Under the pieces are notes generated by a model, which saw only the letters and a program-made list of their open reading frames with translations, did not search any database and was not told the origin of the DNA. DNA of 64,000 nt from a virus: the IMG/VR virus record IMGVR_UViG_3300034062_004592, positions 21,463-85,462 of that record. One strand, 5' to 3'. This document shows, in pieces, positions 1-27,482 of this stretch; the first letter of the stretch is position 1; each line of letters starts with the position of its first letter. The position numbers and the translations under genes are program-made.

Positions 1-14
1 CTGCAACTCACACG

Positions 15-1690: not shown

Positions 1691-1712
1691 CCAAACATTA
1701 AGAGAATCTGTA

Positions 1713-1745: not shown

Positions 1746-1781
1746 GATCCTGCTTAACTCATTCCGCAAAACACACATCAG

Positions 1782-2182: not shown

Positions 2183-2183
2183 T

Positions 2184-2231: not shown

Positions 2232-2242
2232 TTCAACTCAAC

Positions 2243-2664: not shown

Positions 2665-2834
2665 TTGGATTCTCCATCGAATTTAAACGCTGGTATATTA
2701 CAGTGCGTGGTCCCATGGGCAGGGTATATCTCTGCGCTGGGTTTGCCAAACGCCTGCCAGTGTTTGTGTCACCGCAACAATCAATTGCATTTGATGACGA
2801 CATCAATAATGATGAAGGCCATAGTGTGAAGTAA
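2661..2834 (+). CDS. Small hypothetical protein
   Basis: 57 residues starting MIGFSIEFKRWYITVRGPMG. The ATG overlaps the stop of the preceding gene and the stop precedes the 24-bp repeated element by 5 bases, so it fits exactly into the available space. The hydrophobic/basic N-terminus alternates like a beta hairpin. Not recognised. Confidence 0.6.
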   Translation: MIGFSIEFKRWYITVRGPMGRVYLCAGFAKRLPVFVSPQQSIAFDDDINNDEGHSVK

Positions 2835-2839
2835 CACTA

Positions 2840-2863
2840 CGTCCTGAGCATGACGTTAAACTG
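2840..2863 (+). promoter_or_regulatory. 24-bp repeated element, copy 1
   Basis: CGTCCTGAGCATGACG followed by TTAAACTG. CGTC and GACG form a small inverted repeat. Near-identical copies stand at 10127, 13656 and 17859 and a diverged one at 14748, each shortly before a plus-strand gene. Here it lies 33 bases before the ATG at 2896. It could be a phage promoter or an RNA element. Confidence 0.7.
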
Positions 2864-2895
2864 CTCATCACTACGAACTCAACCCTGAACTTACC

Positions 2896-4632
2896 ATGGA
2901 ATTTCGTCTTCCGACCAATCTTCAGAACGAACTTATCCCTTACGATCCAACGCTCAAGAAGTTGGCACGTACTGAAAAGCAAACCAACACAACTACTAAG
3001 AAATCTAAATACCCACTTGGCAATCCACCACAGTTGATGCCATTGGATATTGTAAGAGAATCACTACAGCAAGAAGCAATTGATGTTATCAATGCATCAG
3101 CTGCTCCTGATAGGCACCACGAATTCAAGTTGCCTGTCGGTAACATTCCCAATGTAGAGTACGTTGTCCATGCAGTAATGTACCACTACGAAGGCGTATG
3201 GGTAGCAGCATGGCTGCCACCTAAAGGCAAGGAGAATGACTATGTATACGGCTACACTTACTGCTTCAAGGACACAGCCGCCACTCGTAAGATGCTGGAT
3301 TACCAGGTTAAAAATCACCTGGAACAATACACCATATCAGAAATTGGTCGCTCTACTTATTACCACAAGACTGAATTGGTTACCAAGCAAGACATCATTG
3401 ATGGTAATGATAAAGCCCACTGGATGTATAACACCAACAGCTGGAGCGCAAAGGGTAGAAACATTTCAGCAATGTTAGGACTCTTTAGGGATGCACTTAA
3501 GAAAACAATTCCAACCTGGTCAGACGGTCGTGGAATATTTGATCGCATCAAAACTTCTCGTAACCTATACAACTTGCTTAGTGAAGATCGTGACTTAGAT
3601 CGTAACTACTGGATCAAATACGAAAAAGATTTTGAGCAAACTAAAAAACAATGGTCTGCATCAGTTGCATCTTTGTTCCACATAATTGATTACCATGCAA
3701 ATGTCCCTCACTATAATCCGTTTGCTCCATTTGTGCGCGTTCGTCACATCCTTGATAAACCATTCTTCCGCAAGTGGATCCAAGATAAATGTAATGAGAT
3801 CAATACAAAGTACCAAGATGAATCAGTAGACACTATGGCTACAATCCGCAGGCCTTGGTTGTTAATCAAAGAGTTTGTTAAAGGTATTGCTTATGTCCAT
3901 TCAATCTGGGGTGATGCAGTTCCACTGGATTACTACCAATCAAACATCGATAACTTGATGGGCATTGAAGTCTGGGGCACTGTACCAACAATTGTTGTTC
4001 CGTGGCTAACTGAACATATGCCAGTTGCTTCATTCTTCCAAATGCGTAGTAAATACTACTTGGAACAGAAGGCTGCTCCACAACGTAGTTATGACTATGA
4101 AGAAAAACTTGGTATGTCTAAGTACCGATTCCGTGAATGGGAAGATACATGCAGCATGCTTAATCAAATCCTCAGTAACGACAAAACAATTGATCCACCT
4201 AAGCGTTGGCGCATCACTGAATTCCATGACCATGTGCAAGCAGAAGCATGGAAAATTCAGAATCCCAATCACAAACTTCCACAAGATCTATTCCCTGCAC
4301 CAATCAAGGTGCAGCACGCTGATCAGAACTGGTCATTCTTCCAGCCATTTGACACCCATCAACTGGCACAGTGGGGCCAGGCCGTACGTAACTGCGTAGG
4401 TAACGCCAGCAGTTATGCCGAAGGTGTACGCAAGAAACAACACTTCATTGTGTTGTGTATGGTCGATGGTGCACCACGCTTTACCATCCAACTTGAAGTC
4501 AACATGGGACTCATGAGTGTCAAACAGATTGTTGGGATGCACAACTCCAGGCTGACGGAGGCAGATCGTGATCTGTATTCGGCAGCTTTCCGTCAGGCCT
4601 TGCAATCCCGCGAGGAACAGCTTAAGATCTGA
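2896..4632 (+). CDS. PcfJ-like domain protein
   Basis: 578 residues. The C-terminal 130 residues carry the PcfJ-like pattern: FDTHQLAQWGQAVRNCVGN, then a conserved Tyr/Gly segment, a strand-rich region ending in FTIQLEV, and a VKQIVGMHNSRL close. PcfJ-like proteins occur on conjugative plasmids and in phages with unknown biochemical role. The first 430 residues are unrecognised, with a basic segment around residues 28-40. It is the first gene after repeated element copy 1 and is followed by a terminator, so it is probably transcribed alone. Confidence 0.75.
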   Translation: MEFRLPTNLQNELIPYDPTLKKLARTEKQTNTTTKKSKYPLGNPPQLMPLDIVRESLQQEAIDVINASAAPDRHHEFKLPVGNIPNVEYVVHAVMYHYEGVWVAAWLPPKGKENDYVYGYTYCFKDTAATRKMLDYQVKNHLEQYTISEIGRSTYYHKTELVTKQDIIDGNDKAHWMYNTNSWSAKGRNISAMLGLFRDALKKTIPTWSDGRGIFDRIKTSRNLYNLLSEDRDLDRNYWIKYEKDFEQTKKQWSASVASLFHIIDYHANVPHYNPFAPFVRVRHILDKPFFRKWIQDKCNEINTKYQDESVDTMATIRRPWLLIKEFVKGIAYVHSIWGDAVPLDYYQSNIDNLMGIEVWGTVPTIVVPWLTEHMPVASFFQMRSKYYLEQKAAPQRSYDYEEKLGMSKYRFREWEDTCSMLNQILSNDKTIDPPKRWRITEFHDHVQAEAWKIQNPNHKLPQDLFPAPIKVQHADQNWSFFQPFDTHQLAQWGQAVRNCVGNASSYAEGVRKKQHFIVLCMVDGAPRFTIQLEVNMGLMSVKQIVGMHNSRLTEADRDLYSAAFRQALQSREEQLKI

Positions 4633-4648
4633 TTGCTGAAGCCACAGC

Positions 4649-4684
4649 AGGGCCATCGTATTCTCGTTATAGGTGGCCCTTTCT
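4649..4684 (+). terminator. Rho-independent terminator
   Basis: AGGGCCA (4649-4655) pairs with TGGCCCT (4674-4680), followed by TTCTCT. It lies 17 bases after the PcfJ-like gene. Confidence 0.75.
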
Positions 4685-4687
4685 CTA

Positions 4688-4915
4688 ATGCCTGATTACA
4701 CTGACGATCAACTACTTGCCATGGCAATGGCAAATCTTGGTGAGTACATCCATGACAACTCACCACATTACATTCTGATTGAAGAAGATCCTCGCAATGA
4801 GGATGACTACGATACGTGGAGTTATGGCTGTGAGCCATTGCCACATGATCACACTTGGCAACACACATCAATTGATGTGAGTGTAAGCCCAAGTGATGGG
4901 GACATGGCGGAATAG
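4688..4915 (+). CDS. Acidic hypothetical protein overlapping a tRNA
   Basis: 75 residues from the ATG at 4688; very acidic and Asp/His/Tyr-rich, not recognised. Its last six codons and stop overlap the first 18 bases of the tRNA-Leu at 4898. That means either the tRNA is processed out at the expense of this message, or the true end of the gene was overwritten when the tRNA arrived. Confidence 0.55.
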   Translation: MPDYTDDQLLAMAMANLGEYIHDNSPHYILIEEDPRNEDDYDTWSYGCEPLPHDHTWQHTSIDVSVSPSDGDMAE

Positions 4916-4983
4916 GTAGACGCAACGGACTTAAAATCCGTAGGCCATTGGCTGTGAGAGTTCAAGCCTCTCTGTCCCTACCA
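4898..4983 (+). tRNA. tRNA-Leu (UAA)
   Basis: Class II tRNA. Acceptor stem GGGGACA with TGTCCCT (one G-T pair), anticodon stem-loop ACGGA-CTTAAAA-TCCGT with anticodon TAA at 4932-4934, long variable arm (GGCC/GGCT region), T arm GAGAG-TTCAAGC-CTCTC, discriminator A and encoded CCA at 4981-4983. All arms pair, so it should be functional. The A/C-rich leader of the next gene starts directly after CCA, so tRNA 3' processing would create the 5' end of that mRNA. Confidence 0.95.
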
Positions 4984-5005
4984 ACCCATACAACAGCTCA
5001 ACACC

Positions 5006-5368
5006 ATGTCAATCTTTGCTTGCTTTAAGTACATCATCCCTGAGTTCCATGCATTCAGTGATGACGACAATCGTTACAACCTTGGTGCAACATGGACTGC
5101 ACAAGATGGACTCAAGGATTATCACAACCTTGAACTAAGGTATGTCCATAACTCAGAGCGGCTTGCGCTCCAGGGGGATCCACAGCCTGATGGCTCATGG
5201 CGTTACGTGGAAGCCAACGGTTCCGTTCATACCATCTCACCTGAACGTGCCAAGCATTTCATGGAGCAGACTCATCAGCATGCCACGATCATGTGTGCCA
5301 TGCTCGACAAGCTTAAAGAGTCAGGGGTTATGAACGAACCACTGGACACCCAAGCCAGCCCAGCTTAA
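5006..5368 (+). CDS. Hypothetical protein
   Basis: 120 residues, not recognised. The middle (DPQPDGSWRYVEANGSVH) looks like a beta hairpin, the C-terminal third like a long helix (RAKHFMEQTHQHATIMCAML). The ATG follows the leader ACAGCTCAACACC right behind the tRNA. A terminator-like hairpin follows. Confidence 0.75.
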   Translation: MSIFACFKYIIPEFHAFSDDDNRYNLGATWTAQDGLKDYHNLELRYVHNSERLALQGDPQPDGSWRYVEANGSVHTISPERAKHFMEQTHQHATIMCAMLDKLKESGVMNEPLDTQASPA

Positions 5369-5387
5369 ACTCAGTACCTACTCACTA

Positions 5388-5414
5388 CCCTCCGTTACTA
5401 ACAGCGGAGGGTTT
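5388..5414 (+). terminator. Hairpin: terminator or SD-masking element
   Basis: CCCTCCG (5388-5394) pairs perfectly with CGGAGGG (5405-5411), followed by TTTACT. The 3' arm contains GGAGGG, an ideal Shine-Dalgarno sequence 7 bases before the ATG at 5419, so the same hairpin could end the upstream transcript or hide the ribosome site of the downstream gene. Confidence 0.65.
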
Positions 5415-5418
5415 ACTC

Positions 5419-5763
5419 ATGGACACACAACCTTCAAATGATTACATTGACCTTGATCTTGTTGACAAGGTGCTTGCATTAGTACCAGAGCAGGCATGGT
5501 CTTTAGTATTGACCGCTATTGTTAGCGGCATTGTTGATGAGATGCCATCGACTGTGCTCCAGGAATTGACTGGAGATGTGGAGGGGTTTGATCGTGCTGA
5601 AGAAATCTTGACTTCGTATTACAATGGCACAGATCAACGCAATGCTTTAATCCAAGATGCATTCAAACTTATTGGTACAGAAAATACATTGCATCTTTTG
5701 GATGCAATGCAATTAAACAAGTATGTTGAATCTCTTGAACTTAACACTGAAACCAATGACTGA
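5419..5763 (+). CDS. Acidic helical hypothetical protein
   Basis: 114 residues, Leu/Asp/Glu-rich and probably all-helical; not recognised. GGAGGG in the hairpin 3' arm provides its ribosome site. The end overlaps the start of the cassette gene at 5756 by 8 bases. Confidence 0.75.
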   Translation: MDTQPSNDYIDLDLVDKVLALVPEQAWSLVLTAIVSGIVDEMPSTVLQELTGDVEGFDRAEEILTSYYNGTDQRNALIQDAFKLIGTENTLHLLDAMQLNKYVESLELNTETND

Positions 5764-5950
5764 ACTATCACCACAAGCGCAGGCGGTGTTGGATGCTGCC
5801 GACTCCGCATTTGACCAAGCTGGAACAACTCGCCAAGGCATTGCCGCCGCCCTTCGCAGGGCTGCTGGTTATTTGTTTCCAAACGACACAGCTAAACAGT
5901 GCTACGACCGTCTCCTCGCAATCGCCACCGAACTGGATGACCAGCAATGA
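5756..5950 (+). CDS. Cassette family A protein
   Basis: 64 residues: MTELSPQAQAVLDAA, central IAAALRRAAGYLFPND, C-terminal LLAIATELD. It is the shortest complete member of the family at 205, 5947 and 9778. The ATG at 5756 matches the ATGACTGAA start of its relatives. It overlaps both neighbours by 4-8 bases. Function unknown. Confidence 0.8.
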   Translation: MTELSPQAQAVLDAADSAFDQAGTTRQGIAAALRRAAGYLFPNDTAKQCYDRLLAIATELDDQQ

Positions 5951-6204
5951 CTGAACTATCGCCACAAGCGCAGGCAGTACTAGATGCCTATCGCAGCATT
6001 TGGCTAGATGAACCATTGGAGTGTGACGTGGAGTGCCTCGCCGCCGCCCTGCTGGCTGCTGCGGATCAGGTGGTGCCTGATGAATCTCATCCTGGAGAAT
6101 CTCAATTTTGGGATGATGAAGCAGAGCAGGAATGGCAAAACAATCGTCATGTTCGCCTCCAATTCCTCGCCATCGCCGCCGAGCTGGAGGGTGGCAATGA
6201 CTGA
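5947..6204 (+). CDS. Cassette family A protein
   Basis: 85 residues with MTELSPQAQAVLDAY, LAAALLAAADQVVPDE and FLAIAAELEG. Its first 14 residues are identical to those of its neighbour at 5756, which points to tandem duplication or repeated acquisition. G+C-rich compared with flanking genes. Function unknown. Confidence 0.8.
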   Translation: MTELSPQAQAVLDAYRSIWLDEPLECDVECLAAALLAAADQVVPDESHPGESQFWDDEAEQEWQNNRHVRLQFLAIAAELEGGND

Positions 6205-9023: not shown

Positions 9024-9177
9024 CATCAACAGCTATGGCGGACAAATCGGGCGCATTATGTGGCAGAACACTTGGAACGAGCTATGGGGATACACTGGTT
9101 TCTGGGACAAGAATCCAGGAAAGAAAGGTCGATTTATTCTTTGGTGTATTCGACCGCGCACTGGAGGCGCTACCTGA
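9016..9177 (+). CDS. Small protein ending in an out-of-frame cassette tail
   Basis: 53 residues, Trp-rich (MWQNTWNELWGYTGFWD), not recognised. Its last 8 codons and stop are the nucleotide tail of a family B cassette read in a different frame: 9154-9183 is identical to 9516-9545, where it encodes the true RRALEALPE ending. The gene therefore appears to be built from a foreign segment joined to a leftover cassette 3' end. Confidence 0.55.
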   Translation: MIDINSYGGQIGRIMWQNTWNELWGYTGFWDKNPGKKGRFILWCIRPRTGGAT

Positions 9178-9183
9178 ATGACT
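9154..9183 (+). repeat. 30-bp direct repeat, left copy
   Basis: Identical to 9516-9545. It is the 3' end of a family B cassette plus the following ATGACT, here out of frame. The two copies bracket the gene 9178-9543. Confidence 0.9.
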
Positions 9184-9543
9184 AAACAAATCAACGGTGA
9201 CAAGTTGTTTGTCATTGATCCACACCCTGCTATTCCACCTGCTGATCAACTAAAGAAGTGGGAAGACAAATGGTTTGACGAAGAAGAACATGCTGATGTT
9301 CTGTTGATCCAAGCGTTTCAAGCAGGCGCCGACCAGGAGCTGGAGGCGTGCGTCGGATGGCTTGACCGAAATGGTTACTTCGATTCTGCGCATGAACTCC
9401 GCGCCGCCCGCCGCCCCAAACCGTCGAGCTTGAAAAAGCAAGCGTTAGTTGATCTTTATGATATCTACACCAGCCAGCCCTTCCCTGTGGGAGATAATCG
9501 CTTTAACTGTATCCGCCGCGCACTGGAGGCGCTACCTGAATGA
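9178..9543 (+). CDS. Cassette family B protein
   Basis: 121 residues: an unusual N-terminus (KQINGDKLFVIDPHPAIPPA), then FQAGADQELEACVGWL, LRAARRPKPSSLKKQAL and IRRALEALPE. The core matches the paralogue at 8700. The TGA of the preceding frame abuts its ATG, and its own stop overlaps the next ATG. Bracketed by 30-bp direct repeats. Function unknown. Confidence 0.8.
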   Translation: MTKQINGDKLFVIDPHPAIPPADQLKKWEDKWFDEEEHADVLLIQAFQAGADQELEACVGWLDRNGYFDSAHELRAARRPKPSSLKKQALVDLYDIYTSQPFPVGDNRFNCIRRALEALPE

Positions 9544-9545
9544 CT
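9516..9545 (+). repeat. 30-bp direct repeat, right copy
   Basis: Second copy of 9154-9183, here in its natural frame as the end of the family B gene and the ATGACT of the next gene. Confidence 0.9.
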
Positions 9546-9785
9546 GACTTATCACCACAAGTGCAGGCGGTGTACGACTCAATGCGCGCCGCCACCACAA
9601 TCGTTCCAACCCGCGTTGAATCTGGTGTTCCGGTCGCCTATCGACTGGCCCGGTATCGCACCACCGAAGGTGCTGTTCACCTCAAGCTCCAGGGCGCCTA
9701 CCGATGGAAACAAGGGGCCAGCAGCGGGATTGAGTGGAGAGACATTGAAACCGTCGATCTTGACCAGGAGGCCGACAATGGCTGA
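9540..9785 (+). CDS. Chimeric cassette protein (family A start, foreign end)
   Basis: 81 residues. The first 15 (MTDLSPQVQAVYDSM) are a family A beginning, but the central ALR-AADQV and terminal LAIAAELE segments are absent. Instead there is a strand-rich, basic C-terminal part (YRTTEGAVHLKLQGAYRW) and an acidic end. It looks like recombination after the shared N-terminal coding segment. Function unknown. Confidence 0.7.
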   Translation: MTDLSPQVQAVYDSMRAATTIVPTRVESGVPVAYRLARYRTTEGAVHLKLQGAYRWKQGASSGIEWRDIETVDLDQEADNG

Positions 9786-10026
9786 ACCTCTCTCCCCCGC
9801 CGCTCAGGCGGTGTTGGATGCCGCTAATGCTTCCGCAACTAATGCGTGGTCTGATGCCACTCACCAACGCTTTAGGTCTGGTGTAGCCGCAGCCCTGCAA
9901 GCTGCTGCGAATCAGGCGGTGCCAGATGACGGTGTGGCGTCATCTATTGAACGCATTGTTGAAAAGCGCATCCAAACCAAACTTCTCGCCATTGCCGCCG
10001 AGCTGGAGGGTGTGACCTCACGGTGA
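9778..10026 (+). CDS. Cassette family A protein
   Basis: 82 residues: MAEPLSPAAQAVLDAA, GVAAALQAAANQAVPDD, LLAIAAELEG. AGGAGG lies 6 bases before the ATG. Its opening is closest to the member at 205, although the two genes are 9.5 kb apart. Function unknown. Confidence 0.8.
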   Translation: MAEPLSPAAQAVLDAANASATNAWSDATHQRFRSGVAAALQAAANQAVPDDGVASSIERIVEKRIQTKLLAIAAELEGVTSR

Positions 10027-17909: not shown

Positions 17910-18023
17910 ATGTTTGAATCCATCCTTGGCATTGTTCTTCCCGTTGTTAAAGATTTGTTGTGGGCAGCGGCAGGCATGGCGCTGACCTATTTGATTAACA
18001 AGGTTCAACATAGTTGGGCATGA
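17910..18023 (+). CDS. Tiny membrane protein
   Basis: 37 residues: MFESILGIVLPVVKDLLWAA followed by GMALTYLIN and a short basic/aromatic tail. One amphipathic or membrane helix. It is the first gene after repeated element copy 5 and its stop overlaps the next ATG. It could be a holin-like or membrane-targeting peptide; no homologue recognised. Confidence 0.55.
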   Translation: MFESILGIVLPVVKDLLWAAAGMALTYLINKVQHSWA

Positions 18024-18232
18024 CTAAACACGATGCAACAAAACAAATCATTGCACTAGCTAAAACCTACGACTTTATTCTGATCAGGAAAAAGAAGCAT
18101 CTGATTTTTAAGCATCCGTCTGGTGCCACGCTTGTAACATCAGGTACCACTGGTGACTGGCGTGCACTTAAAAATGTTGAAGCCAACATCAAACAAGTTC
18201 TTTTGAAACATGACTCAAATCACATCAACTAA
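18020..18232 (+). CDS. HicA-like small protein
   Basis: 70 residues from the ATG overlapping the previous stop. KTYDFILIRKKKHLIFKHPS, then LVTSGT and a closing helix, resembles the small double-stranded-RNA-binding fold of HicA mRNA interferases (strand-basic turn-H-strand). The usual catalytic GSHxxF histidine may correspond to KKHLIF. No HicB antitoxin gene is beside it, so it may be a phage regulator rather than a toxin. Confidence 0.5.
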   Translation: MTKHDATKQIIALAKTYDFILIRKKKHLIFKHPSGATLVTSGTTGDWRALKNVEANIKQVLLKHDSNHIN

Positions 18233-18911
18233 ACTCAACGAGCTTAGTGTCATCAAACTCTACGAGCACTACAATGCTCTTGAAAAATCACTGCCTCTAC
18301 TTACTCCTGAGTCCCAGGACTTGGCAAAAGCAGAGCTTGAGAGTTGCGCCAACCTACGGTCTGAAAAGGTTGATCGTATCTATTACGCCATGGCGGCGCA
18401 CGACGACGCCTTGGAACGTATCAAGAAAGAAACTGAACTCATCACGCAAGCTAAACGTCACCACGAATCTCAACTGCGGTCCCTCAAGGGGTTGTTAAAC
18501 TGGTTGAAGCGGTCATTGCCATTTGATACCAATAAAATCACTGGCCGCAATTATCAGTTCACACTTGTAAAGAAGAGGGAGTTAACGGTTGAAGTCTCGT
18601 CGGATCCGGACGTTTGGAGTCCTGAACACAGGCAACTCTATTGCATCGAAGAACAAGTCACCACAACTAAAGAAATTGTGCTACGTTCAATGTCAGGAGA
18701 AGTTCTTTCCACAAGAACAGAACCTGCCACCAAAACTAAAGTACTCCCAAACCTCGATGCCATCCGCGACGCCTACCAAACCGGACAACTTCTACCAAGT
18801 GGGGTCAAGGTCTGCCAAGAGTACAGCATCCGTTCTAAGCGAATCTATGTCGAACCACGTGTGGAACTACAAGCATCCGAGTATCCAGGACAATTTCTAC
18901 CTGAAGATTGA
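18210..18911 (+). CDS. Siphovirus Gp157-like protein
   Basis: 233 residues. The N-terminal half is a long coiled coil (KLYEHYNALEKSLPLL, then an Ala/Asp/Glu/Arg helix with ALERIKKETELI), followed by GLLNWLKRSLP, KITGRNYQFTLVKKRELTVEV and DPDVWSPEHRQ. That order matches Gp157, linked in some phages to resistance or recombination functions. A C-terminal extension beyond the family core ends in EYPGQFLPED. Confidence 0.7.
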   Translation: MTQITSTKLNELSVIKLYEHYNALEKSLPLLTPESQDLAKAELESCANLRSEKVDRIYYAMAAHDDALERIKKETELITQAKRHHESQLRSLKGLLNWLKRSLPFDTNKITGRNYQFTLVKKRELTVEVSSDPDVWSPEHRQLYCIEEQVTTTKEIVLRSMSGEVLSTRTEPATKTKVLPNLDAIRDAYQTGQLLPSGVKVCQEYSIRSKRIYVEPRVELQASEYPGQFLPED

Positions 18912-19164
18912 AGCGCCATCCAATGTGGATGATGCCAAGATCAAAATGAACTGCCATCAACACGCAGTAAAAGACTTTGATCTTCAGCTGGAAATGAATG
19001 ATCTTGAGATCGATATGCTCAAAGATCAGGATCAGGTATTGCCGTACAACGAAACACGTGCGGATGAATTAGACCAAAAAAAACTTAAGTTGCTTCTCGG
19101 TAAGAGGTTCCATCAAAATGCTATGAATGCTTATTGGTATTACTTGGCTAAGATGGGTAAATAA
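18847..19164 (+). CDS. Hypothetical protein
   Basis: 105 residues from MSNHVWNYKHPSIQDN; the open frame extends upstream but only as a shadow of Gp157. Helical and charged, ending KRFHQNAMNAYWYYLAKMGK. Not recognised. It overlaps Gp157 by 65 bases unless a later start is used. Confidence 0.6.
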   Translation: MSNHVWNYKHPSIQDNFYLKIEAPSNVDDAKIKMNCHQHAVKDFDLQLEMNDLEIDMLKDQDQVLPYNETRADELDQKKLKLLLGKRFHQNAMNAYWYYLAKMGK

Positions 19165-19187
19165 CTTAAGGCTATACGGGGTGTTCC

Positions 19188-19451
19188 ATGGGGGGAGATT
19201 CAGTTCTCAATAACTTGATTGCTGGTTTTACTCAGGATGGGACACCTCTTTCTGCGTTGATTGGTTCTAAGCAGGAGTTTGGAGTTGTCATCCTTACTGC
19301 CGCCATGCTTGCAAATGAAAACCTTGCAGGCCAAATGACGGCAGAAGAAATGGTAGATGGTGCTATCAATTACTACAACGTAATCCAAGAGCGTCTTGGT
19401 TACTACCAGCAACATCAAGCCCATTCACTGGAACGACTTCTAAATAACTGA
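19188..19451 (+). CDS. Hypothetical protein
   Basis: 87 residues beginning MGGDSVLNNLIAGFTQDG, with hydrophobic VVILTAAMLANENL in the middle and a polar end rich in Gln, Tyr and His. Not recognised. Confidence 0.7.
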   Translation: MGGDSVLNNLIAGFTQDGTPLSALIGSKQEFGVVILTAAMLANENLAGQMTAEEMVDGAINYYNVIQERLGYYQQHQAHSLERLLNN

Positions 19452-19479
19452 TATAGTGACTGGGTCCTTCCAGTTATTG

Positions 19480-19677
19480 ATGGAACCAGTTACTGTGCCA
19501 AAACTAACGGTGTCATTTGCAATTGATATTGAAGTAGAGTATGACTCCTTCGGTGGTAAAACGCCGCAGGATATTGCGATTGCGCTCCAAGATGAGATTG
19601 ATGATCTCCTCTACGAAGCAAGCCCCACTGTGTCTTCTGTATTCACTTCCATTACCGCACTGGATTCCAATGACTGA
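19480..19677 (+). CDS. Small hypothetical protein
   Basis: 65 residues from the ATG at 19480; a GTG at 19456 is possible. Strand-rich VPKLTVSFAIDIEVEYD then an acidic helix. Not recognised. It overlaps the next gene by 8 bases. Confidence 0.65.
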   Translation: MEPVTVPKLTVSFAIDIEVEYDSFGGKTPQDIAIALQDEIDDLLYEASPTVSSVFTSITALDSND

Positions 19678-19996
19678 CGACCTCGCAATCAAACTTAAAA
19701 CTGCTGGGGCTTTTGATACGCCTTGGCTCAAGGAACAACTCCGCAACTGGAACGTTATTACTGAGCAAAAGAAAGCAGACTTTACTGAGCACATGTATGA
19801 GTGCTCTGGACGCCAGCACCCGCAGCATCCCATGCACGGCCTCTACACCGGCCTGTGGGAAGCCTTCTGCCTGAATGAGGCAGGTCCGTACTGCCGGGAG
19901 AAGTACTTCCAAATGGTGGAAGCAGTGCGTCAATACGAGGCTGGTTTGCTGCCAGCGGTTGCGCTTGACACAGAACCCGTGGTAGTTATATCTTAA
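19670..19996 (+). CDS. Hypothetical protein
   Basis: 108 residues from ATGACTGAC, overlapping the preceding stop. Contains a His/Cys-rich stretch (HMYECSGRQHPQHPMHGLY) that could bind metal. Not recognised. A terminator follows. Confidence 0.7.
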   Translation: MTDDLAIKLKTAGAFDTPWLKEQLRNWNVITEQKKADFTEHMYECSGRQHPQHPMHGLYTGLWEAFCLNEAGPYCREKYFQMVEAVRQYEAGLLPAVALDTEPVVVIS

Positions 19997-20021
19997 GCTT
20001 TATATTGAACACAGTTGCTTC

Positions 20022-20056
20022 AAAGCACATCACAATGCGGGTGTGCTTTTTCTTTT
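20022..20056 (+). terminator. Rho-independent terminator
   Basis: AAAGCACA (20022-20029) pairs perfectly with TGTGCTTT (20042-20049), followed by TTCTTTT. It ends the transcript of 19188-19996. Confidence 0.85.
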
Positions 20057-20524
20057 ATGGACCATCCCCACGAACCCATCAATGCCATCAAGGAATGGCA
20101 AAAGTGGTACCGCACTCACGCCGTTGTTGCTTCCATGGATGAACCGTTAATGTCTAAAGACTCACGCGAAAATTTGCACGACACCTCCAAAGCTACGCAT
20201 GAGATGCCAGACTGGCGTTCGTTTTACAAAGAACTTGCCGAGGTTGATATTGAACCTACCAAGGTAGATGACAACATTTATCTACAGAAAGCAATCGAAC
20301 ACTTTAGTGACACTCTTTGTGAATTTGCGCATGAACTAAGTGCTGAACAGTTCTACAAAGCATTCTTGATTGCAGCTACAAATGTAGCCAAGAGTGCACA
20401 AGATGATTACCTCAAGTGCAAAACATTAGTTGATCTTATTGAAGGCAATGAAGAAACAAAAGCGAGTGAATTATCCGAATTGGATATGCCACAAGTGCGG
20501 CGTAAAGCACGGTGCCTGGTATAA
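20057..20524 (+). CDS. Acidic helical hypothetical protein
   Basis: 155 residues from the ATG right after the terminator T run; helical and acidic, with HALVASM-like and HFSDTLCEFAHELSAEQF segments. Not recognised. Its last 77 bases overlap the start of the zinc-ribbon frame at 20448. Confidence 0.75.
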   Translation: MDHPHEPINAIKEWQKWYRTHAVVASMDEPLMSKDSRENLHDTSKATHEMPDWRSFYKELAEVDIEPTKVDDNIYLQKAIEHFSDTLCEFAHELSAEQFYKAFLIAATNVAKSAQDDYLKCKTLVDLIEGNEETKASELSELDMPQVRRKARCLV

Positions 20525-20674
20525 AAATGGAACTTATATTGGACCTGACAATTGCTCTACAAATCACATGGGAACTTGTGGTGTGTGTGTGGTACAACTG
20601 ATGTAAGCGTTACTGAGCCACGGGACTATGGCCACTTGCGTGCTGAATGGAGGCAAGAAAAACTACAATTTTAG
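20448..20674 (+). pseudogene. Frameshifted zinc-ribbon protein
   Basis: From an ATG with GAAGG upstream, the frame reads MKKQKRVNYPNWICHKCG, then a His/Cys pattern to HMGTCGVC, and would stop at 20606. The matching continuation GTTDVSVTEPRDYGHLR lies in the -1 frame and ends at 20674. The break falls in a GT run (20581-20591). Joined, it gives a CxxC...CxxC zinc ribbon plus VTEPRDYG, a combination I know from small phage proteins. Either a 2-base slippage/assembly error or a programmed frameshift. The shifted end overlaps the minus-strand gene by 4 bases, as at other convergent junctions here. Confidence 0.65.
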
Positions 20675-21015
20675 TTGCCAGTGCCAAGAGAAAATAATAC
20701 AGTTGCCGCAGTGCCGCCCGATTCGGATACAAATACTGGTCGAACGTATCTCACCGGGTGGTTTGTTGAGTTGTAATGAGTTGTACCGTTAGCGGTAATG
20801 GTTGTATTGGCAATTATTTTAGACCAGTGGGTTCCGTCAATTGATGCTTCTAGTGCAATGATAACGTTGGTATTAATTGATGCTACTGTTACAAACAACG
20901 AATAGTTTTTTGTGACAATAGTTGGAGGTAAATAAACAGAAATGGAATCACACGAAGCGGGTGCATCAAGCAAAGGATAAGTAAAAAATAAACTATCGGG
21001 GGGATGTGCTGTCAT
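20671..21015 (-). CDS. Putative virion-associated protein
   Basis: 114 residues, Ser/Thr/Val-rich with beta-sandwich texture (SLFVTVASINTNVIIALEAS, RYVRPVFVSESGG). Not recognised; composition and position beside fibre genes suggest a tail decoration or fibre-associated domain. Confidence 0.65.
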   Translation of the reverse strand: MTAHPPDSLFFTYPLLDAPASCDSISVYLPPTIVTKNYSLFVTVASINTNVIIALEASIDGTHWSKIIANTTITANGTTHYNSTNHPVRYVRPVFVSESGGTAATVLFSLGTGN

Positions 21016-21097
21016 GAGTTTTGCCTTTATCTTTTTATTTTAATGCATAAAATTATTGTTGCACTTCCTTTTATAATAGAACTACAGTTAAAAAATT

Positions 21098-21127
21098 ATG
21101 TATACTCCTGCTCCCCAACAGTACCAA
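21098..21127 (+). repeat. Duplicated 5' end of the Dps-like gene (remnant)
   Basis: Codes for MYTPAPQQYQ, the same first ten residues as the gene at 24965, with two synonymous base differences, then diverges and stops. With the intact gene it brackets the minus-strand fibre block 21145-24851. Confidence 0.8.
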
Positions 21128-21144
21128 GTAGCTGTAAACAATAA

Positions 21145-21444
21145 TTATGTTGCAAACACTCTTACCGGCTGCTCCGGCGTCACGACATAGGCGTCCCACC
21201 CATCAGGCAGCTCACCGATGTAGTTGACGTGCCAGCCGCTCAGCAGCACGGGTGGGGTAAGCACCTCGCCGGTCTCAGGGTCGTAGGTGCCGCCTGTGTA
21301 GATGGGACCGATGACATCCAGGGCGTGCGTGTGGCTGGCGGTGAGGGGATGCGTGACGCCATCATCGTCGGTGTAAAGAAGGCCAGCAGCATCCAGGGCA
21401 GCCATGCCGGTGGATTCGTCGGGGAAGCGGATGTAGTGGGTCAT
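21145..21444 (-). CDS. Tail-fibre-associated small protein
   Basis: 99 residues, G+C-rich, starting MTHYIRFPDESTGMAALDAA with a GWHVNYIGELPDGWDAYVV C-terminal block. I recall near relatives next to tail fibres in cyanophages and other phages, where they act like fibre-assembly or cap proteins; unverified. Its start overlaps the end of the large fibre gene by 4 bases. Confidence 0.7.
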   Translation of the reverse strand: MTHYIRFPDESTGMAALDAAGLLYTDDDGVTHPLTASHTHALDVIGPIYTGGTYDPETGEVLTPPVLLSGWHVNYIGELPDGWDAYVVTPEQPVRVFAT

Positions 21445-22757
21445 TGCGTGATTGCCTGGAGGGTGCTGTTGGGGAGGCGCTGGGGCCAGTAGGTGAGGCG
21501 GCGGATGGTGCCTCCTTTCTGTACAACAAAACTACTATCTCCTTGAATCGCAAGCCTGCTAAGGGTTGGCATGGACGATGGGTTTGCACTTGTAGAAACA
21601 GCAGAGCCATTGCAAGAGAGCCCTCTTCCGCTGGCGGAAACTGCCAACGCAGCTCGGTTCAAAACGTTTGCCGTGAATGTCCCACCAGCATCCATTCGCC
21701 CTTGGTTTGCAGATGCAACAAGCATGTTTGAGCTTACTCTTTGATTGGCTACGCTAACGCTAAATAGATTGATCGAATTGTTAGCGGTTTCGTCATCAAT
21801 AACAACAATCGAACCTCCAACTGCTGGCTGATCGTATGCTGCAAACACCGTCCCCTCATCCTGCCGATACCAGGAGCTGAAGTTCGCCCCCGTGATGCTG
21901 GCAACGTCCGCGCTGCGGGTGGCGGCTGCGGTTGACGTTGGGATCGCACTGGTCGCAAATGCACCCAGCTCTAGCTGGGGCAGGCCGATGCGGAGGGTGA
22001 TGTCAACAGCCAAGCCAGTGTTAATGTTGCATTGAATGAAAGGCATAAGGGCGGCTACAGTAGCCCCTCCCGATAGTGTTCTAGTAAACGATGGCCTATA
22101 AGACCCCAGTGGTGTAACAGGAATAGTCATGTCCTGTGTGCCACTAACCACCGCAACACCTGCTGATGTGTTTTCCTGCAAAACAAGGCGAATGTTTGTG
22201 AAATTAGCGGTTGAGCCAGCCTGCACTTTGATGTAGTTCGTTAGCGTCCAGGCCTGCCCAGTTAAAGCTGGCACACCCGTGGCGGTTTCAAACACAATGT
22301 TTGTCTGACCTGTGCCTGTAGTTGTGCCGTTAATGCGAAAATCAATGTATGTAATTCCATTTTCCGTGCCGGTGCCGACTACATTTGCCGCTAGACCCGT
22401 ATTGTTTGACTGGTTCCAATTTGTTGGAGGTGTCCCCGGCGTACCAGCCACCGCGCCAACCATCGTGTTGTTGCGGATGCTGTTGGTCCTCTGCTCCTCC
22501 ACCAGCAGGCCCAGGCTTTCGCCGGTTGTGGGGTTGTGGTCAAACCTCGGCACATCCACAGCCGCCGTCTGCAGCGTTCCCGCACTGTCGATGAAGGTCG
22601 CACTGCTGGCGCGGGTAAACGTAACTAAATTTTGCCCAGTTGCAGAATCAATTAAACTTTTAGTAGACGCAAAGTTTAAATCAAGGGCAGAATTTTTAAA
22701 TATAGTAGAGGCAAAGTTTCCAGCTGTTAAAGCTTTTAAATGAGGAAGTATAAACAT
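21441..22757 (-). CDS. Tail fibre / receptor-binding protein
   Basis: 438 residues. TFTRASSATFIDSAG, VPRFDHNPTTGESLGLLVEE and ITGANFSSWYRQDEGTVFA form a widespread pattern in phage fibre proteins: an RASSAT block, an EEQRTN block, a carbohydrate-binding-like jelly roll (LPQLELGAFATSAIPTS) and a SWYRQ lectin-like domain. It should contact the cell surface. Base composition varies along the gene, with G+C-rich patches that suggest domain swapping. Confidence 0.8.
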   Translation of the reverse strand: MFILPHLKALTAGNFASTIFKNSALDLNFASTKSLIDSATGQNLVTFTRASSATFIDSAGTLQTAAVDVPRFDHNPTTGESLGLLVEEQRTNSIRNNTMVGAVAGTPGTPPTNWNQSNNTGLAANVVGTGTENGITYIDFRINGTTTGTGQTNIVFETATGVPALTGQAWTLTNYIKVQAGSTANFTNIRLVLQENTSAGVAVVSGTQDMTIPVTPLGSYRPSFTRTLSGGATVAALMPFIQCNINTGLAVDITLRIGLPQLELGAFATSAIPTSTAAATRSADVASITGANFSSWYRQDEGTVFAAYDQPAVGGSIVVIDDETANNSINLFSVSVANQRVSSNMLVASANQGRMDAGGTFTANVLNRAALAVSASGRGLSCNGSAVSTSANPSSMPTLSRLAIQGDSSFVVQKGGTIRRLTYWPQRLPNSTLQAITQ

Positions 22758-22762
22758 TTTGA

Positions 22763-23158
22763 TCAGCTCGTAGTATCGCCGGTAAGAATGTATTCATTTG
22801 TTACTACGCTAACTAAAGATGCAATTGCATATTGGCCACCTGTTTTATTAGTGCCATTCCGTAAACGTAAAGTTGCGCCGGCTCCAGCGGTTACCGTTAT
22901 TTGTCCTGTTCCGTATTGGACGATGCTGCATGTAAAACGTGCGGATAATCCTGCTGGAATTGTTAATGTAATAGTAGATGAATTTGTAAAAACAACAATT
23001 TTTCCATTGTCATCATTATTTAAAGTGTAAGCAGTAGTTGTTTTTGTTGTTAGTCCAGGGGGATTTAATTGATACGTATCCGCTGAAACGCCAGGAAAAT
23101 TACAGTACTGCTTGTAAATAGCAGTGCCTTCAGAATTTATCAAAGGAAATTTAGACAT
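22763..23158 (-). CDS. Fibre or virion protein
   Basis: 131 residues. Pattern TLTIPAGLSARFTCSIVQYG then GQITVTAGAGATLRLRNG is typical of phage fibre or spike beta modules. Likely a tail-associated structural part. Confidence 0.7.
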   Translation of the reverse strand: MSKFPLINSEGTAIYKQYCNFPGVSADTYQLNPPGLTTKTTTAYTLNNDDNGKIVVFTNSSTITLTIPAGLSARFTCSIVQYGTGQITVTAGAGATLRLRNGTNKTGGQYAIASLVSVVTNEYILTGDTTS

Positions 23159-23197
23159 GTGCGCATCATCTTGTTTTTATAAGTCTAGCAAACCAAA

Positions 23198-23713
23198 TTA
23201 AGCTTGAGCTTCTGTCCAGGAAGGATGCGTGGCGATTGTGTTGGTAGTAACAGCGCTAACGTTGGTTACCCTCATGGATTGGGAAGAAATCTCAAGATGA
23301 GTCGTTAATGTAGGTGGCTGCGGCCAGGTGATGTCGAATGGGTTGGGCGCATCAGCCAGATCGCGCAGGGCCTGGCGGTAGATGGCCCAGGCGTCACGAT
23401 CAGCGCCGAGGTCGTAGTCAGCAATCTGCGTCCAGTCGCTGGCCTTGAGCAGCTCGATGCGCTGATCGCGGACCTTGGCGTGCTGCATTTGCAGCTCGTT
23501 GAAGCTGTAGGGGCGCACCACAAAGGCGCTGCCGTCCCAGTCAATCGTTTCCAGCTTCGGGTTGCACTCGGGGCGCTCGTAGGGGCCGCTGTACCCGGCA
23601 CGCTCCAGCTCGTCAGGCGTGAAGGTGGTGCTGTCGGTGCGGGTGCTGCCGTCCGCAAAGCGGATGCGGTGCGGCAATGGTGCTGGGGCGGCTTGGCGGT
23701 GGGAGTAGAGCAT
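23198..23713 (-). CDS. Phage tail assembly chaperone-like protein
   Basis: 171 residues. The stretch RIELLKASDWTQIADYDLG, then WAIYRQALRDLADAPNPF, matches the Phage_tail_APC type found next to fibres. It probably helps fibre folding or attachment. Residues 1-60 form a separate strand-rich domain. The start abuts the LamG-like gene (shared base 23713). Confidence 0.8.
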   Translation of the reverse strand: MLYSHRQAAPAPLPHRIRFADGSTRTDSTTFTPDELERAGYSGPYERPECNPKLETIDWDGSAFVVRPYSFNELQMQHAKVRDQRIELLKASDWTQIADYDLGADRDAWAIYRQALRDLADAPNPFDITWPQPPTLTTHLEISSQSMRVTNVSAVTTNTIATHPSWTEAQA

Positions 23714-24492
23714 CAGAAGTTCGGGAAGGGACCACTCGGAAGTACATCTGGGCGGGCAACGCCTTTGGTAATGCGGAGATCGTCGATGTAGCCCGGCATG
23801 TAATAAGTTCCAAGGCCAGTAATAAAACGACCTACGTACAGATCATCGTTGTTAATCTTGTTGTAACTTGTTGAGTCTGTAGCCGTTGCGCCAAGTTGTG
23901 TATTGTCTACCAAAAGTCGCAGATTAGTGCCGCTTCTAGTGGCCTTGATGAAATACCATGTATTGACAACTGGGGTCCATGCGCGGCTAGTTATTGTTGA
24001 AGTCGTCCCATCAAATCTATACCAGGCAAGTGTATTATCTGTTTCCCAAAATAACGCCCAACCGGATGTAGTTGGAGACCCGCCCCCGATGGCGCCAACG
24101 CCAAGGCTGACTAATGGAATTAATGAACTAACAGAATCAAACCGAGCCCATAGTTCTACATCAAAATTACCTGTGCCAAGCTCAAATGCACTATTGACCG
24201 GAACAGTCAGAAAGTCTCCTGCTCCGTCAAAGTATCCGCTTGCACCGCCCCATTTGCTCTGCGCCGTGCTTATCTGCGCGTTGCCATTAGCCGTGACTGT
24301 AAACCCGTTGCTGCTGTTATCCGTAAACGTAGTGCTGCTGTTGCTGCCATCCATGTGCAGCAGCAGGCTTACATTGGCAAAGTAGGGATCAGAGCCTTCA
24401 ATAATCGCCCGCTCGTTCGGAAACCACAGACCAGGAGTGGTGCGCTTTTGCTCGCGCCTGAATCCCAGCAGTCCGCCGTTGAAGCCGAGCAT
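23713..24492 (-). CDS. LamG/concanavalin-like lectin fibre protein
   Basis: 259 residues. After an N-terminal virion-linking part (FNGGLLGFRREQKR), a LamG-type jelly roll runs from about residue 40: LLLHMDGSNSSTTFTDNS, SKWGGASGYFDGAGDFLTV, FDVELWARF, GYIDDLRITKGVAR. Such domains bind glycans; here probably host polysaccharide. Confidence 0.85.
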   Translation of the reverse strand: MLGFNGGLLGFRREQKRTTPGLWFPNERAIIEGSDPYFANVSLLLHMDGSNSSTTFTDNSSNGFTVTANGNAQISTAQSKWGGASGYFDGAGDFLTVPVNSAFELGTGNFDVELWARFDSVSSLIPLVSLGVGAIGGGSPTTSGWALFWETDNTLAWYRFDGTTSTITSRAWTPVVNTWYFIKATRSGTNLRLLVDNTQLGATATDSTSYNKINNDDLYVGRFITGLGTYYMPGYIDDLRITKGVARPDVLPSGPFPNF

Positions 24493-24851
24493 CAGCTGAT
24501 GTCCTCGTAGGAGATGACCAGCTCCAGGTCGTTGGCGGCGCTGGCCTGTGCGCGGAGGCTGTGGCCTTCTTCCAGGTAGATGTATGCCTCGCGGGTGACC
24601 AGTACCTGGGTAGCGTCAGCTGGCACGCTGATCGTCTTGCCAATAGCGAAGCCAGTGGTGCCGTTGTAATGCTCCAAGCTGATGTCAGCCGCTGCGGTGC
24701 CGTCCACGTTGGCGCAGTAGACGCTGTTGATCTTTAGCACCTTGCCACTGCTGGCGCCGTTGCTCAGCGCTGCAGCCATCGAGGTGGTGACGGCATACCC
24801 TATTGTTTTGCCATTTATTGTAGTTGGCGTTTTAAGGTTTGGTGCTGCCAC
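24492..24851 (-). CDS. Putative virion protein
   Basis: 119 residues, beta-rich, with TAAADISLEHYNGTTGFAIG and YIYLEEGHSLRAQASA. I associate this pattern with small phage structural proteins. First gene of the minus-strand fibre block; its stop overlaps the start of the LamG gene. Confidence 0.7.
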   Translation of the reverse strand: MAAPNLKTPTTINGKTIGYAVTTSMAAALSNGASSGKVLKINSVYCANVDGTAAADISLEHYNGTTGFAIGKTISVPADATQVLVTREAYIYLEEGHSLRAQASAANDLELVISYEDIS

Positions 24852-24964
24852 TGAAGGATATCTTATTGAAAATAGTCTAGCAAAACTATTTCAAATAATT
24901 GATTTGCTTCGCATTAAACATAAAAAGTCTAACGTTGTTAAACTAGAACTATTGATAAGTAACC

Positions 24965-24994
24965 ATGTATACTCCTGCCCCTCAACAGTACCAG
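24965..24994 (+). repeat. Second copy of the duplicated segment
   Basis: Start of the intact Dps-like gene; pairs with the remnant at 21098-21127. Confidence 0.8.
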
Positions 24995-25519
24995 GCTGCG
25001 GAAGCTCCTCAGGCACAACCTGTTCCTCAGCCCCAGAACAAGCCTAAAGCTCCTGCTAAATCCAAGGCTGGTGGTGATGTGGGTGCATTCATCCAGCAGT
25101 GCATTTCACTTTGCGCTTACCTCAAGGAACTTGAGACCCAATCACATTTGATTCATCTCAACTACGAGGGATCAAACTTCCTTGGGGTCCACGCATTCCT
25201 AAAGGATCAATACGAGGCTCACCTGGAACAGTTTGATACCCTTGCTGAGTTTGTTCGCAGCATGGACTACCTGATGCCAATGTGTGGCTGCGGTCTCAAG
25301 GATGCAGCCCCTCCCATGCAAGCAGTAACCTCTTACAAGGGCAATGACATGCTTGGCGTGTACTACAAGAACCTTGAAGAGCTGGGCATGAAAGCCAAGA
25401 AGCTTGAGCCTGTAGCACAAAAGGTTGGTGCAATTGACATCCAGAACTACATGGCTGATCTTGTTGGCCAAGCATTTAAAGCCGCTTGGTTTGTTAAGGC
25501 TACGTTGAGGAACGGGTGA
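24965..25519 (+). CDS. Dps-family ferritin-like protein
   Basis: 184 residues: a low-complexity Pro/Ala/Gln/Lys N-terminus (1-36), then a four-helix-bundle region. HLNYEGSNFLGVH (64-76) and FDTLAE (90-95) place H64, H76, D91 and E95 at exactly the spacing of the Dps ferroxidase ligands (12, 15 and 4 residues). Dps proteins oxidise and store iron and protect DNA from peroxide. A Cys-rich turn (MPMCGCG) is unusual. Its 5' end is duplicated at 21098, and it neighbours tail genes, so it may be packaged or virion-associated; that is inference. Confidence 0.75.
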   Translation: MYTPAPQQYQAAEAPQAQPVPQPQNKPKAPAKSKAGGDVGAFIQQCISLCAYLKELETQSHLIHLNYEGSNFLGVHAFLKDQYEAHLEQFDTLAEFVRSMDYLMPMCGCGLKDAAPPMQAVTSYKGNDMLGVYYKNLEELGMKAKKLEPVAQKVGAIDIQNYMADLVGQAFKAAWFVKATLRNG

Positions 25520-26439
25520 TGGAACTATTTCAAAAATTTTTAAATCAAGTTAGGCAAAAATATAAAGAAGTAGATAAGACTACAGGCGGTTGGTTGCCTG
25601 GTGGAGGTGTTGCATCTCCTCTGACACGTGCTCGTCAAGAAGGGGAACGGAAAATGGCTGAACGAATTGCTGCACAACAAAGACCTCAATACTCTGGCCA
25701 ACCGGGTCGCTTTGCTGGTCAAGGGCAATTGTTAAATGCTGTCCGGGCCACTACTGAAGCAGGCTCTAATCCTTTTGCCATATTGATGGGAAATCCAGGA
25801 GAAGTTAAACGCGTTGCTGATTATTATCAACAAAATCCAAACTTGCAAAATCAGTACGATCTAAATACAAATATGTTTTTACGTTATCTTTCAGGTACTG
25901 GCGCAAAAGGATTACAGGTAACCCCGGAAGTTGGTAAACAATTATACAAAGATATTCAAACACAAGAACAAAAGTTTCAAATTCCTGATAATCGGGAGAG
26001 AATGATTAATGCAAATCCTTGGACCAAACAAAGTTGGACCAAACAAAATTTTTTAAAAGGCAGGACTCCGGTTTATTACGGAGGACATTCTGAAGCCACT
26101 ACAGAAAATAGTCCTGAAGTTGGTTCTGGCCTTCGTCCTACGCTTTCATATGATAAAGGACAACGTTGGCAACTTCGCAATTCGTTGGGTTCTTTTTGGG
26201 CAGAGCCTACTAATAATGGCTATGCCGTTAATAATGAACGCTACAACTTTATGTATGCCCCTGCAGAAAAAGAAGGAACTAATGTGCCACCCCTATTAGG
26301 CGAAAACCTATTCAAACCAAAAAGCCAAGTGCCAAACAGCATTGCTGATGTAGGAAGAAATCTTGTAAGAGCAGGTTACGGAACTCCATACACAATTAAT
26401 TTACAAGTAAATCCTGAAGGCCAGGTAATCTTTCGTTAA
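25519..26439 (+). CDS. Putative virion-associated protein
   Basis: 306 residues from the ATG overlapping the Dps stop (a GTG one codon earlier is possible). Begins with a helix, then GGWLPGGGVASPLTRARQEG, long Gln/Asn/Pro-rich low-complexity segments, and NLVRAGYGTPYTINLQVNPEG at the end. Not recognised; composition resembles tail or internal virion proteins such as that at 61766. The ends of this gene and the HNH at 26436 overlap by 4 bases. Confidence 0.7.
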   Translation: MELFQKFLNQVRQKYKEVDKTTGGWLPGGGVASPLTRARQEGERKMAERIAAQQRPQYSGQPGRFAGQGQLLNAVRATTEAGSNPFAILMGNPGEVKRVADYYQQNPNLQNQYDLNTNMFLRYLSGTGAKGLQVTPEVGKQLYKDIQTQEQKFQIPDNRERMINANPWTKQSWTKQNFLKGRTPVYYGGHSEATTENSPEVGSGLRPTLSYDKGQRWQLRNSLGSFWAEPTNNGYAVNNERYNFMYAPAEKEGTNVPPLLGENLFKPKSQVPNSIADVGRNLVRAGYGTPYTINLQVNPEGQVIFR

Positions 26440-26684
26440 TCACTCCAGTGTTCAAGCCTGTGGCAGTTGCAGCACAACGGAATACATTTATTGATTTCTT
26501 CTTGGATACGACGCCAGGCGTATCCGTGATTCACCATACTTGACACATTTAAATCCTTGTCACCTATATGGTGAAACTCAAGGACTCTATAGTCTTCCAG
26601 GGCGCAGTGCTCACACTTAAGAGTCTTCTTGTATTCCAAGAATCTCTTTCGGTTTTCTTGTAGCCTGCGTGTACTTGTTGGCAC
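26436..26684 (-). CDS. Small HNH endonuclease
   Basis: 82 residues with GTG start. CEHC (24-27), EFHHIGDKD (36-44) and CCNCHRLEH close to the C-terminus give a complete HNH with zinc-binding cysteines. Probably a mobile homing-type nuclease. A structured, promoter-bearing region lies just upstream. Confidence 0.8.
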   Translation of the reverse strand: MPTSTRRLQENRKRFLEYKKTLKCEHCALEDYRVLEFHHIGDKDLNVSSMVNHGYAWRRIQEEINKCIPLCCNCHRLEHWSD

Positions 26685-26689: not shown

Positions 26690-26895
26690 CCTACGCATTC
26701 TTTCGTGAATCAAACGGGCGGGAGTGATCAATCTCCCGGCCTGGAAACCCAGGACTTCGAACAGTCCTCCCAAGACAAATGCCAAGTTCAGACTGTGGGA
26801 TGGATCAGGTGTAACTGGCGTACCGACAATCGGGCTGTGAGTTAACCAGGCGTATCCAGACAGGGACCTGACCTCTATCAAAGATATTATAACAA
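26690..26895 (-). other. Structured upstream region with promoter-like box
   Basis: On the minus strand an extended -10 sequence TGTTATAAT (about 26886-26894) precedes about 190 bases with three consecutive hairpins at 26719-26767: CGGGAG/CTCCCG, CCTGG/CCAGG and GGACT/AGTCC. A 65-codon frame also spans it but lacks an ATG. I favour a leader or non-coding RNA of the HNH gene, without strong proof. Confidence 0.35.
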
Positions 26896-26896
26896 A

Positions 26897-27445
26897 TCAA
26901 AGGTCATCAAGCACCAAGCGTTTGCCACGGAACTTGCTACGAGCGGTTTTATTTTTTGTGTCCACGGCAATAACTACGGCAATTTGTGGCGTGGTACCGT
27001 TTGTATACAAGAGATAATCTCCCTTTTTTACTGTATCTGGTTGGCAAACGTAATGTGTTTCTTTGCCATTCATTGCTGCAGAAAAAGTGTAGGGCAGTAC
27101 TTCTTCCAGGTCTGCAGGAGCAATTACATGGATGTTGTTTGTCCCTTTTTCTTCAATTAGGTAGTTGTTGCTAGAGTTGGTGCCAATGTGGCTGCCATAT
27201 GCAATTGTGCCGTCTTCTTTCTTGAAAGAATAAAGAGTTTTGGTGTCAGCCATAATTTCTTCAAGGGGTTCGTAAAGTTTTAATTCGCTTTCGCAAGCTT
27301 CAAAGCATCCTTTGCTTGGTGCTAGATACTGACAGTACCAATATGGATTAGTAGTACTGCCGCGCCATGAGATTCGACGCAGTATTGTTGCAGGTGTTTT
27401 GCCGTGCATTTTGGTGACGGTATCACCAACATTAAATTGTGACAT
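26897..27445 (-). CDS. Hypothetical protein with KOW-like modules
   Basis: 182 residues. FNVGDTVTKMHGKTPATI at the start and KKGDYLLYTNGTTPQIAVVI near the end each look like a small SH3/KOW-type barrel. The middle (LYSFKKEDGTIAYGSHIG) is also strand-rich. Not recognised. Confidence 0.7.
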   Translation of the reverse strand: MSQFNVGDTVTKMHGKTPATILRRISWRGSTTNPYWYCQYLAPSKGCFEACESELKLYEPLEEIMADTKTLYSFKKEDGTIAYGSHIGTNSSNNYLIEEKGTNNIHVIAPADLEEVLPYTFSAAMNGKETHYVCQPDTVKKGDYLLYTNGTTPQIAVVIAVDTKNKTARSKFRGKRLVLDDL

Positions 27446-27482
27446 GCTTCAAAACTGTAAATGCAACTGTTGATAGCATAGC

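Follow-up and report, generated by a model that had tools for sequence, protein, structure and literature searches.

Why should a phage carry the start of one gene twice, on either side of a block of opposite-strand tail genes? The question is raised by a 64,000-nt stretch of viral DNA, hereafter the window, which is part of an 85,462-base virus record (IMG/VR record IMGVR_UViG_3300034062_004592, positions 21,463 to 85,462). In the window an intact dps-like gene (24965..25519, plus strand; ferritin/Dps PF00210, E 8.3e-11) follows a set of minus-strand frames, here called block B (21145-24851), and on the other side of this block the leader and first codons of a dps gene occur again, directly beside a small minus-strand gene that we call fibre A (20671..21015). 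The original prediction for this locus, made from the letters alone, was that the fibre block had been swapped in from a related phage and had brought along the start of that phage's dps. Our comparison with related contigs leads to a different account: very probably, the feature is a recombination scar, and the window represents a recombinant that carries both cassettes, fibre A and block B. Whether the DNA of the region or the dps protein is compared, the only named relative found is Synechococcus phage S-EIV1 (KJ410740), from a high arctic lake, and the presumed host and habitat of the window's phage are taken from this kinship.

A truncated dps start beside fibre A

The repetition is real. 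Positions 21071-21126 and 24938-24993 form a direct repeat of 56 aligned nt at 80% identity, comprising about 27 nt of leader upstream of the ATG and the first 29 nt of dps, and the first ten codons of both copies translate to MYTPAPQQYQ with three synonymous differences, much as had been noticed. When as many as 3 mismatches are allowed, a degenerate pattern for MYTPAPQQ occurs in the window at these two sites only, and not once in 100 shuffles. The upstream copy consists of a leader (21016..21097, plus strand), matching 81/82 nt in the related loci L038 and L179 alike, which ends at the stub proper, the first 29 nt of dps allele A (21098..21126, plus strand), matching 29/29 nt in L038 and 28/29 in L179. 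By these alignments, stub and leader belong to the L038/L179 type, and the stub is the truncated dps of the left allele. Fibre A itself matches at 332/345 nt in L038 and 333/345 in L179, and its start and the ATG that follows stand 83 bp apart in the window, L038 and L179. Past the stub, identity falls to chance level (15/59 with L038, 16/59 with L179). The notion that the short frame breaks off after ten codons holds for its likeness to dps, which stops there, but not for the frame itself, which stays open for 30 codons to a TAG at 21188-21190, the part beyond the stub being unrelated to dps.

Such a stub is rare. An nhmmer profile built from 50 distinct dps leaders and starts gave 141 hits in 292 related loci and the window, 20 of them without a dps downstream. 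Six of these share E 6e-12 and belong to the window, to L096 and to one contig that recurs as L001, L099, L178 and L214, while the other 14, at E 0.66 or worse, include no further stub. S-EIV1 and the record G012 have their own dps start only, with further hits at E 2.9 or worse. L096 (positions 1-6189) combines 5.6 kb identical to the window, scar included, with an L003-like left flank; provided that its assembly is right, L096 shows a possibly recent transfer of the stacked locus from one backbone of the group to another.

Parental arrangements and the proposed join

Close relatives hold each half of the arrangement by itself. L038 is collinear with the window from 18001 to 21126, unbroken and at 96.4% identity, and then goes on into a full dps, and L179 is built alike, with left flank, fibre A and full dps. 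There are thus relatives, as had been anticipated, whose dps of the stub type is complete, but there the gene follows fibre A and not block B. For the other half, the homologue of 20662, near the end of a small conserved gene (20430..20674, plus strand), is followed in L002 and G012 within about 20 bp by the homologue of 21125, and neither has fibre A or a dps start at the left end of block B. The short junction of the window (21127..21144) resembles this left edge of block B, L002 aligning from 21125 and G012 from 21125 or 21128. The A-side layout is thus found nearly to the base in relatives, the left edge of block B in two of them, and the switch between the two, at 21126, is sharp. All of these phages are close, the 876-aa primase of L002, L003, G012, L038 and L179 being 99-100% identical to that of the window and the flanks mostly above 92% identity per 250 nt, with a few lower stretches; between the candidate parents, too, the flanks are similar.

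On the most likely account, one parent had fibre A directly before its own dps; in the other, the small gene was immediately followed by the left end of block B, and that parent's own dps stood on the right. The first, cut about ten codons into dps, would have been fused to the left edge of block B, and the product would carry fibre A, a dead dps start, block B and a single intact dps, that of allele I. The longest match round the junction is 6 nt for L038 with L002 and 5 nt for L038 with G012, the parents being stand-ins, and since such a match is no better than chance, an illegitimate join is favoured. The join was probably illegitimate, and the exchange on the other side would have been homologous; a scheme of this kind goes by the name homology-facilitated illegitimate recombination (PMC3240628; PMC5361080). 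The 6-nt microhomology CAACAG was considered as the cause of the join and rejected, a match of that length being reached by 2944 of 20000 random pairs.

On the right, identity to many relatives picks up again at about 24936, the start of a segment (24936..24964, plus strand) that is both the right edge of the variable region and the leader of the intact dps. Dps relatives among viral contigs were taken as the best 80 of 211. The window's dps protein is 96-97% identical to those of L002, L003 and G012, and 78-79% identical to those of L038 and L179; allele I is found in the window, L002, L003, L004, L006 and G012, and allele II in L038, L179 and L036. Over their first ~180 bp, the ten aligned dps copies are at least 80% identical to the window's per 60 nt, and the alleles split after about 60 codons, beyond which the DNA identity is 58-85%. 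The dps of L036 (7960-8538) joins a leader of the allele I type to an allele II body, so that exchange near the dps start happened at least once more.

The arrangements in relatives bear out the view that recombination made this boundary and that the module it limits is variable and includes tail-fibre genes, and the frames of 21145-24851 do lie between the two copies, with tail, chaperone and lectin-like genes among them. What has to be given up is the plain swap: two cassettes have come to stand side by side, one of them, fibre A, outside the block first considered, which shows that the slot can gain a cassette as well as exchange one. Either side may have been the newcomer; if it was the A side, that newcomer did bring in a dps start, but together with fibre A rather than with block B. 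As an instance of phage mosaicism the locus is unusually clear, in that the A-side arrangement is nearly unchanged in close relatives, and because that arrangement is kept, the scar can be assigned to the left allele. Still, it is ordinary mosaicism, well resolved on one side, and the general idea of phage evolution is unchanged by it.

The variable slot before dps

The interval between the small conserved gene and dps is a variable slot. Of 100 loci looked at, 61 have both flank markers on one strand, the small gene being the left limit in each, and their spacing ranges from 118 to 6773 bp. L194 (same contig as L040) and L109 (no dps within the locus) were dropped; L109 is the locus of record G012, whose contig is cut inside the slot, with dps at the other end of the record. 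L001 and L096 were left out for having the same junction as the window, and in the remaining loci one marker was not found in the stretch at hand. A relative of fibre A alone is present in 22 of the 61 slots, relatives of block B alone in 7, neither in 31, and both in one, the window. Near-identical loci remain among the 61; counted by the 47 dps clusters at 97%, the respective numbers are 17, 7, 22 and 1. As A and B occupy the same place in different relatives, one variable slot serves both. It is a site for structural and tail-fibre genes and probably has a role in host recognition; in S-EIV1-like phages, it is a place in which to look for possible host-range differences.

The content of the slot differs widely even between close relatives. 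Of the 4273 nt of the window's slot, only 32 nt align with L003 or L004, 162 with L036, 544 with L002 and 404-406 with L038 and L179; for G012, whose slot is in two halves, the figures are 575 and 693. Slots can also be held in common, those of L003 and L004 being identical and those of L038 and L179 97% identical. In 17 of the 22 A slots no more than 120 bp separate dps from the start of fibre A; in the other 5 fibre A stands further left, with a plus-strand virion structural gene (phrog_1645) between in 4 and another gene in L028. In L003 (8617-9948), a 444-aa plus-strand virion structural gene of the same family fills the slot directly before dps, as its relatives do in several other loci; genes of this type are absent from the window. 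The slot of S-EIV1 holds a tail protein (phrog_5302, E 2.9e-119).

L028 and its close partner L030, 98.7% identical on both sides, differ by an 852-nt stretch that L028 alone has between fibre A and dps (9106-9957, against 9953-9957 in L030). It encodes a 272-aa minus-strand frame with an HEVGH motif, for which there is no PHROG match and only a Pfam match below the cut-off, and it ends 43 nt before the dps ATG with no stub. This pair, too, suggests that the slot may grow by accretion at the edge formed by the dps leader. It is a possible, though doubtful, extension of our findings that the slot grows in this way, that both fibre A and block B are made, giving the phage two receptor-binding sets at once, and that the joined locus is functional. 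As for an invertible cassette, 9 inverted pairs were found in 20500-26000, but the block is not flanked by any of them, and the repeat that does flank it is direct; among 17 nearby proteins compared with PHROGs, the rest of the genome not having been scanned, there was no invertase.

Weighing the explanations

Several observations weigh against reading the locus as the fusion of two cassettes. The B parent was not found, no contig outside the clade covering more than 1500 of the 3809 nt of block B, and block B is itself a patchwork as judged by its nearest relatives. L002, L036 and G012 are imperfect stand-ins for that parent: their slots end, beside dps, with sequence related to the plus-strand structural gene, which the window does not have, and the two halves of the G012 slot lie at opposite ends of a record whose circularity is not shown. 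The breakpoint cannot be fixed to the base, the scar being assignable within a few bases. Mixed slots are not unique, only the combination of A with B is, and relatives of fibre A stand with a second gene and with no stub elsewhere, the second gene being the structural gene in L058, L200, L072, L073, L011, L012 and L039 and the 272-aa frame in L028. Finally, L096 may be a strain-mixed assembly, and a single water body may be the source of the samples that gave the window, L001 and L096.

These last points touch on the alternative that survives best, namely that the window is an assembly chimera of two co-occurring strains of one phage species. The two parental types are very closely related and might well be present together, strains can become joined in the assembly of a metagenome, and L096 matches L003 at 99.5% over its first 620 nt before turning to the window type. 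Nevertheless, the same junction is present in the window, L001 and L096, which carry different dataset numbers: the 10,929 nt of L001 show no difference from the window, and L096 differs from the window at 52 of 5966 aligned positions, none of them within 19392-25022. The recurrence of the junction in L001 and L096 makes a one-off assembly error unlikely, and the longest match between the parental stand-ins, at 6 nt, is too short for an assembler slip. Altogether we consider a chimera improbable.

It is very improbable that, as was first proposed, a related phage was the source of block B and that the stub is the beginning of its dps, brought in with the block. The synonymous differences between stub and dps, and the position of the fibre block between them, would agree with such an origin; however, the stub is contiguous with the left flank, with fibre A and with the leader of L038/L179, and block B in L002 and G012 has no dps sequence at its left end.

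That the short frame is a functional leader peptide or a regulatory element under selection, for which one could cite its complete leader, its start codon and its 30 open codons, is hardly credible, since across the 292 loci, the window, S-EIV1 and G012 the stub occurs in the window, L001 and L096 only, so that there is no conservation in relatives with other fibres to support it, and since the copies present are identical and give no reading on selection. The most likely interpretation is a scar left by the joining of two cassettes, relatives of each of which stand alone in the same slot in other loci.

Genes of the two cassettes and their flanks

Fibre A, the 114-aa product of 20671..21015, has relatives in 37 viral stretches, the sister contigs of the window among them, and gave no match among named phages by tblastn. 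Its structure, predicted with 35 aligned sequences, is an all-beta sandwich (pLDDT 84.8, pTM 0.72), and among predicted viral structures a 109-aa protein of Synechococcus phage S-CAM8 comes nearest to it (TM 0.82, 27% identity). Matches among solved structures are weak and mixed, led by the prophage protein YomS (TM 0.59) and including phage cement and carbohydrate-binding folds. A major tail protein family is matched at E <= 0.001 by five of the 35 aligned sequences, but not by the protein of the window (E 0.0026). The modelled fold, together with strand and position, suggests that fibre A is a fibre protein.

Block B, entirely on the minus strand, begins on the left with a 99-aa protein (21145..21444; phrog_18574, of unknown function, E 9.2e-18), followed by a 438-aa tail protein (21441..22757; phrog_5939, E 4.8e-49), a 131-aa protein whose matches include virion structural and minor tail families (22763..23158), a 171-aa tail-fibre assembly chaperone (23198..23713; Phage_tail_APC, E 2.4e-15) and a 259-aa LamG/concanavalin-like protein with family matches in PHROG and Pfam (23713..24492). 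The last frame, of 119 aa (24492..24851), has no PHROG or Pfam match and is common in viral contigs, the best 80 of 299 related stretches having been kept. The parts of the block have different nearest relatives: the left part is nearest to L002, G012, L100 and L101 (86-93% in contigs such as L100 and L101), positions 22562-23254 to L006 and G012 (91.5%), and for 23312-24855 contigs like L215 and L292 are nearest. The L215 and L292 records yielded no counterpart of the window's primase or dps, a weak absence, as these may be fragments; in L253, a similar contig for the right part, the primase is matched only weakly (E 2e-10, 38% over 160 aa) and dps is absent from the record. No single donor of block B was found among the contigs outside the clade. 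Sequence of the block B type is also present in L016 (12713-13084), downstream of dps and an HNH gene and near a tRNA-Cys gene, which means that fibre blocks can take a second place in the genome.

The small conserved gene that limits the slot on the left we call zinc-finger-like, on account of its CxxC pairs and not of a family match. In the window, L001 and L096 an extra GT in a GT run (20575-20600 in the window) shifts its frame; the extra GT is missing in L002, L003, L004, L036 and L038, and the frame is open in L002 and L038. At the other edge, formed in the window by the leader at 24936..24964, most of the dps leaders shown have a TAAACT / TACAAT element, which by its conservation may be a promoter; a promoter consensus scan gave no site at either dps leader. 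Beyond dps, the right flank includes a conserved HNH endonuclease-like gene (26436..26684, minus strand; phrog_2255, E 3.5e-19), 94-96% identical at the nucleotide level in L002, L003, L004, L006, L038 and L179. With such a gene in the flank, homing of the cassette by the HNH enzyme is conceivable. Two segments to the right of dps, 25516-26439 and 26703-27482, are unaligned with most close relatives, and the genes between them align.

Comparison with known systems

A literature search, judged mostly by titles and thus weak evidence, found no description of this locus. Within S-EIV1 itself, opposite-strand genes also stand directly before dps, two in number, one of them a tail protein gene, ahead of a gene for a DNA-binding ferritin-like protein; unlike the window, S-EIV1 has no second dps start, and its dps is followed by an ATP sulfurylase gene where the window has a 307-aa frame with no match to ATP sulfurylase.

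Among other systems, the closest likeness is with the host recognition cluster (HRC) of cyano- and pelagimyophages, reported to be a hypervariable tail-fibre island between conserved genes, which diverges by the addition of cassettes rather than by complete replacement (PMC7029224). Both have tail-fibre genes at a fixed place between conserved genes. The HRC, however, has its place between VrlC and gp14 of T4-like phages, with a mean size of 34-45 kb (PMC7029224), whereas the slot described here spans 0.1-6.8 kb between the small gene and dps in S-EIV1-like phages. A likeness of another kind is to the effector-immunity displacement arrays of type VI secretion systems (T6SS), in which a new module is added with the old piece kept, and for which homology-facilitated illegitimate recombination has been proposed (PMC5361080). 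Here too, a module was added and an old piece was kept beside it, but the T6SS arrays are bacterial loci in which immunity genes are kept, while in the phage slot the piece kept is the dead stub of a neighbouring gene.

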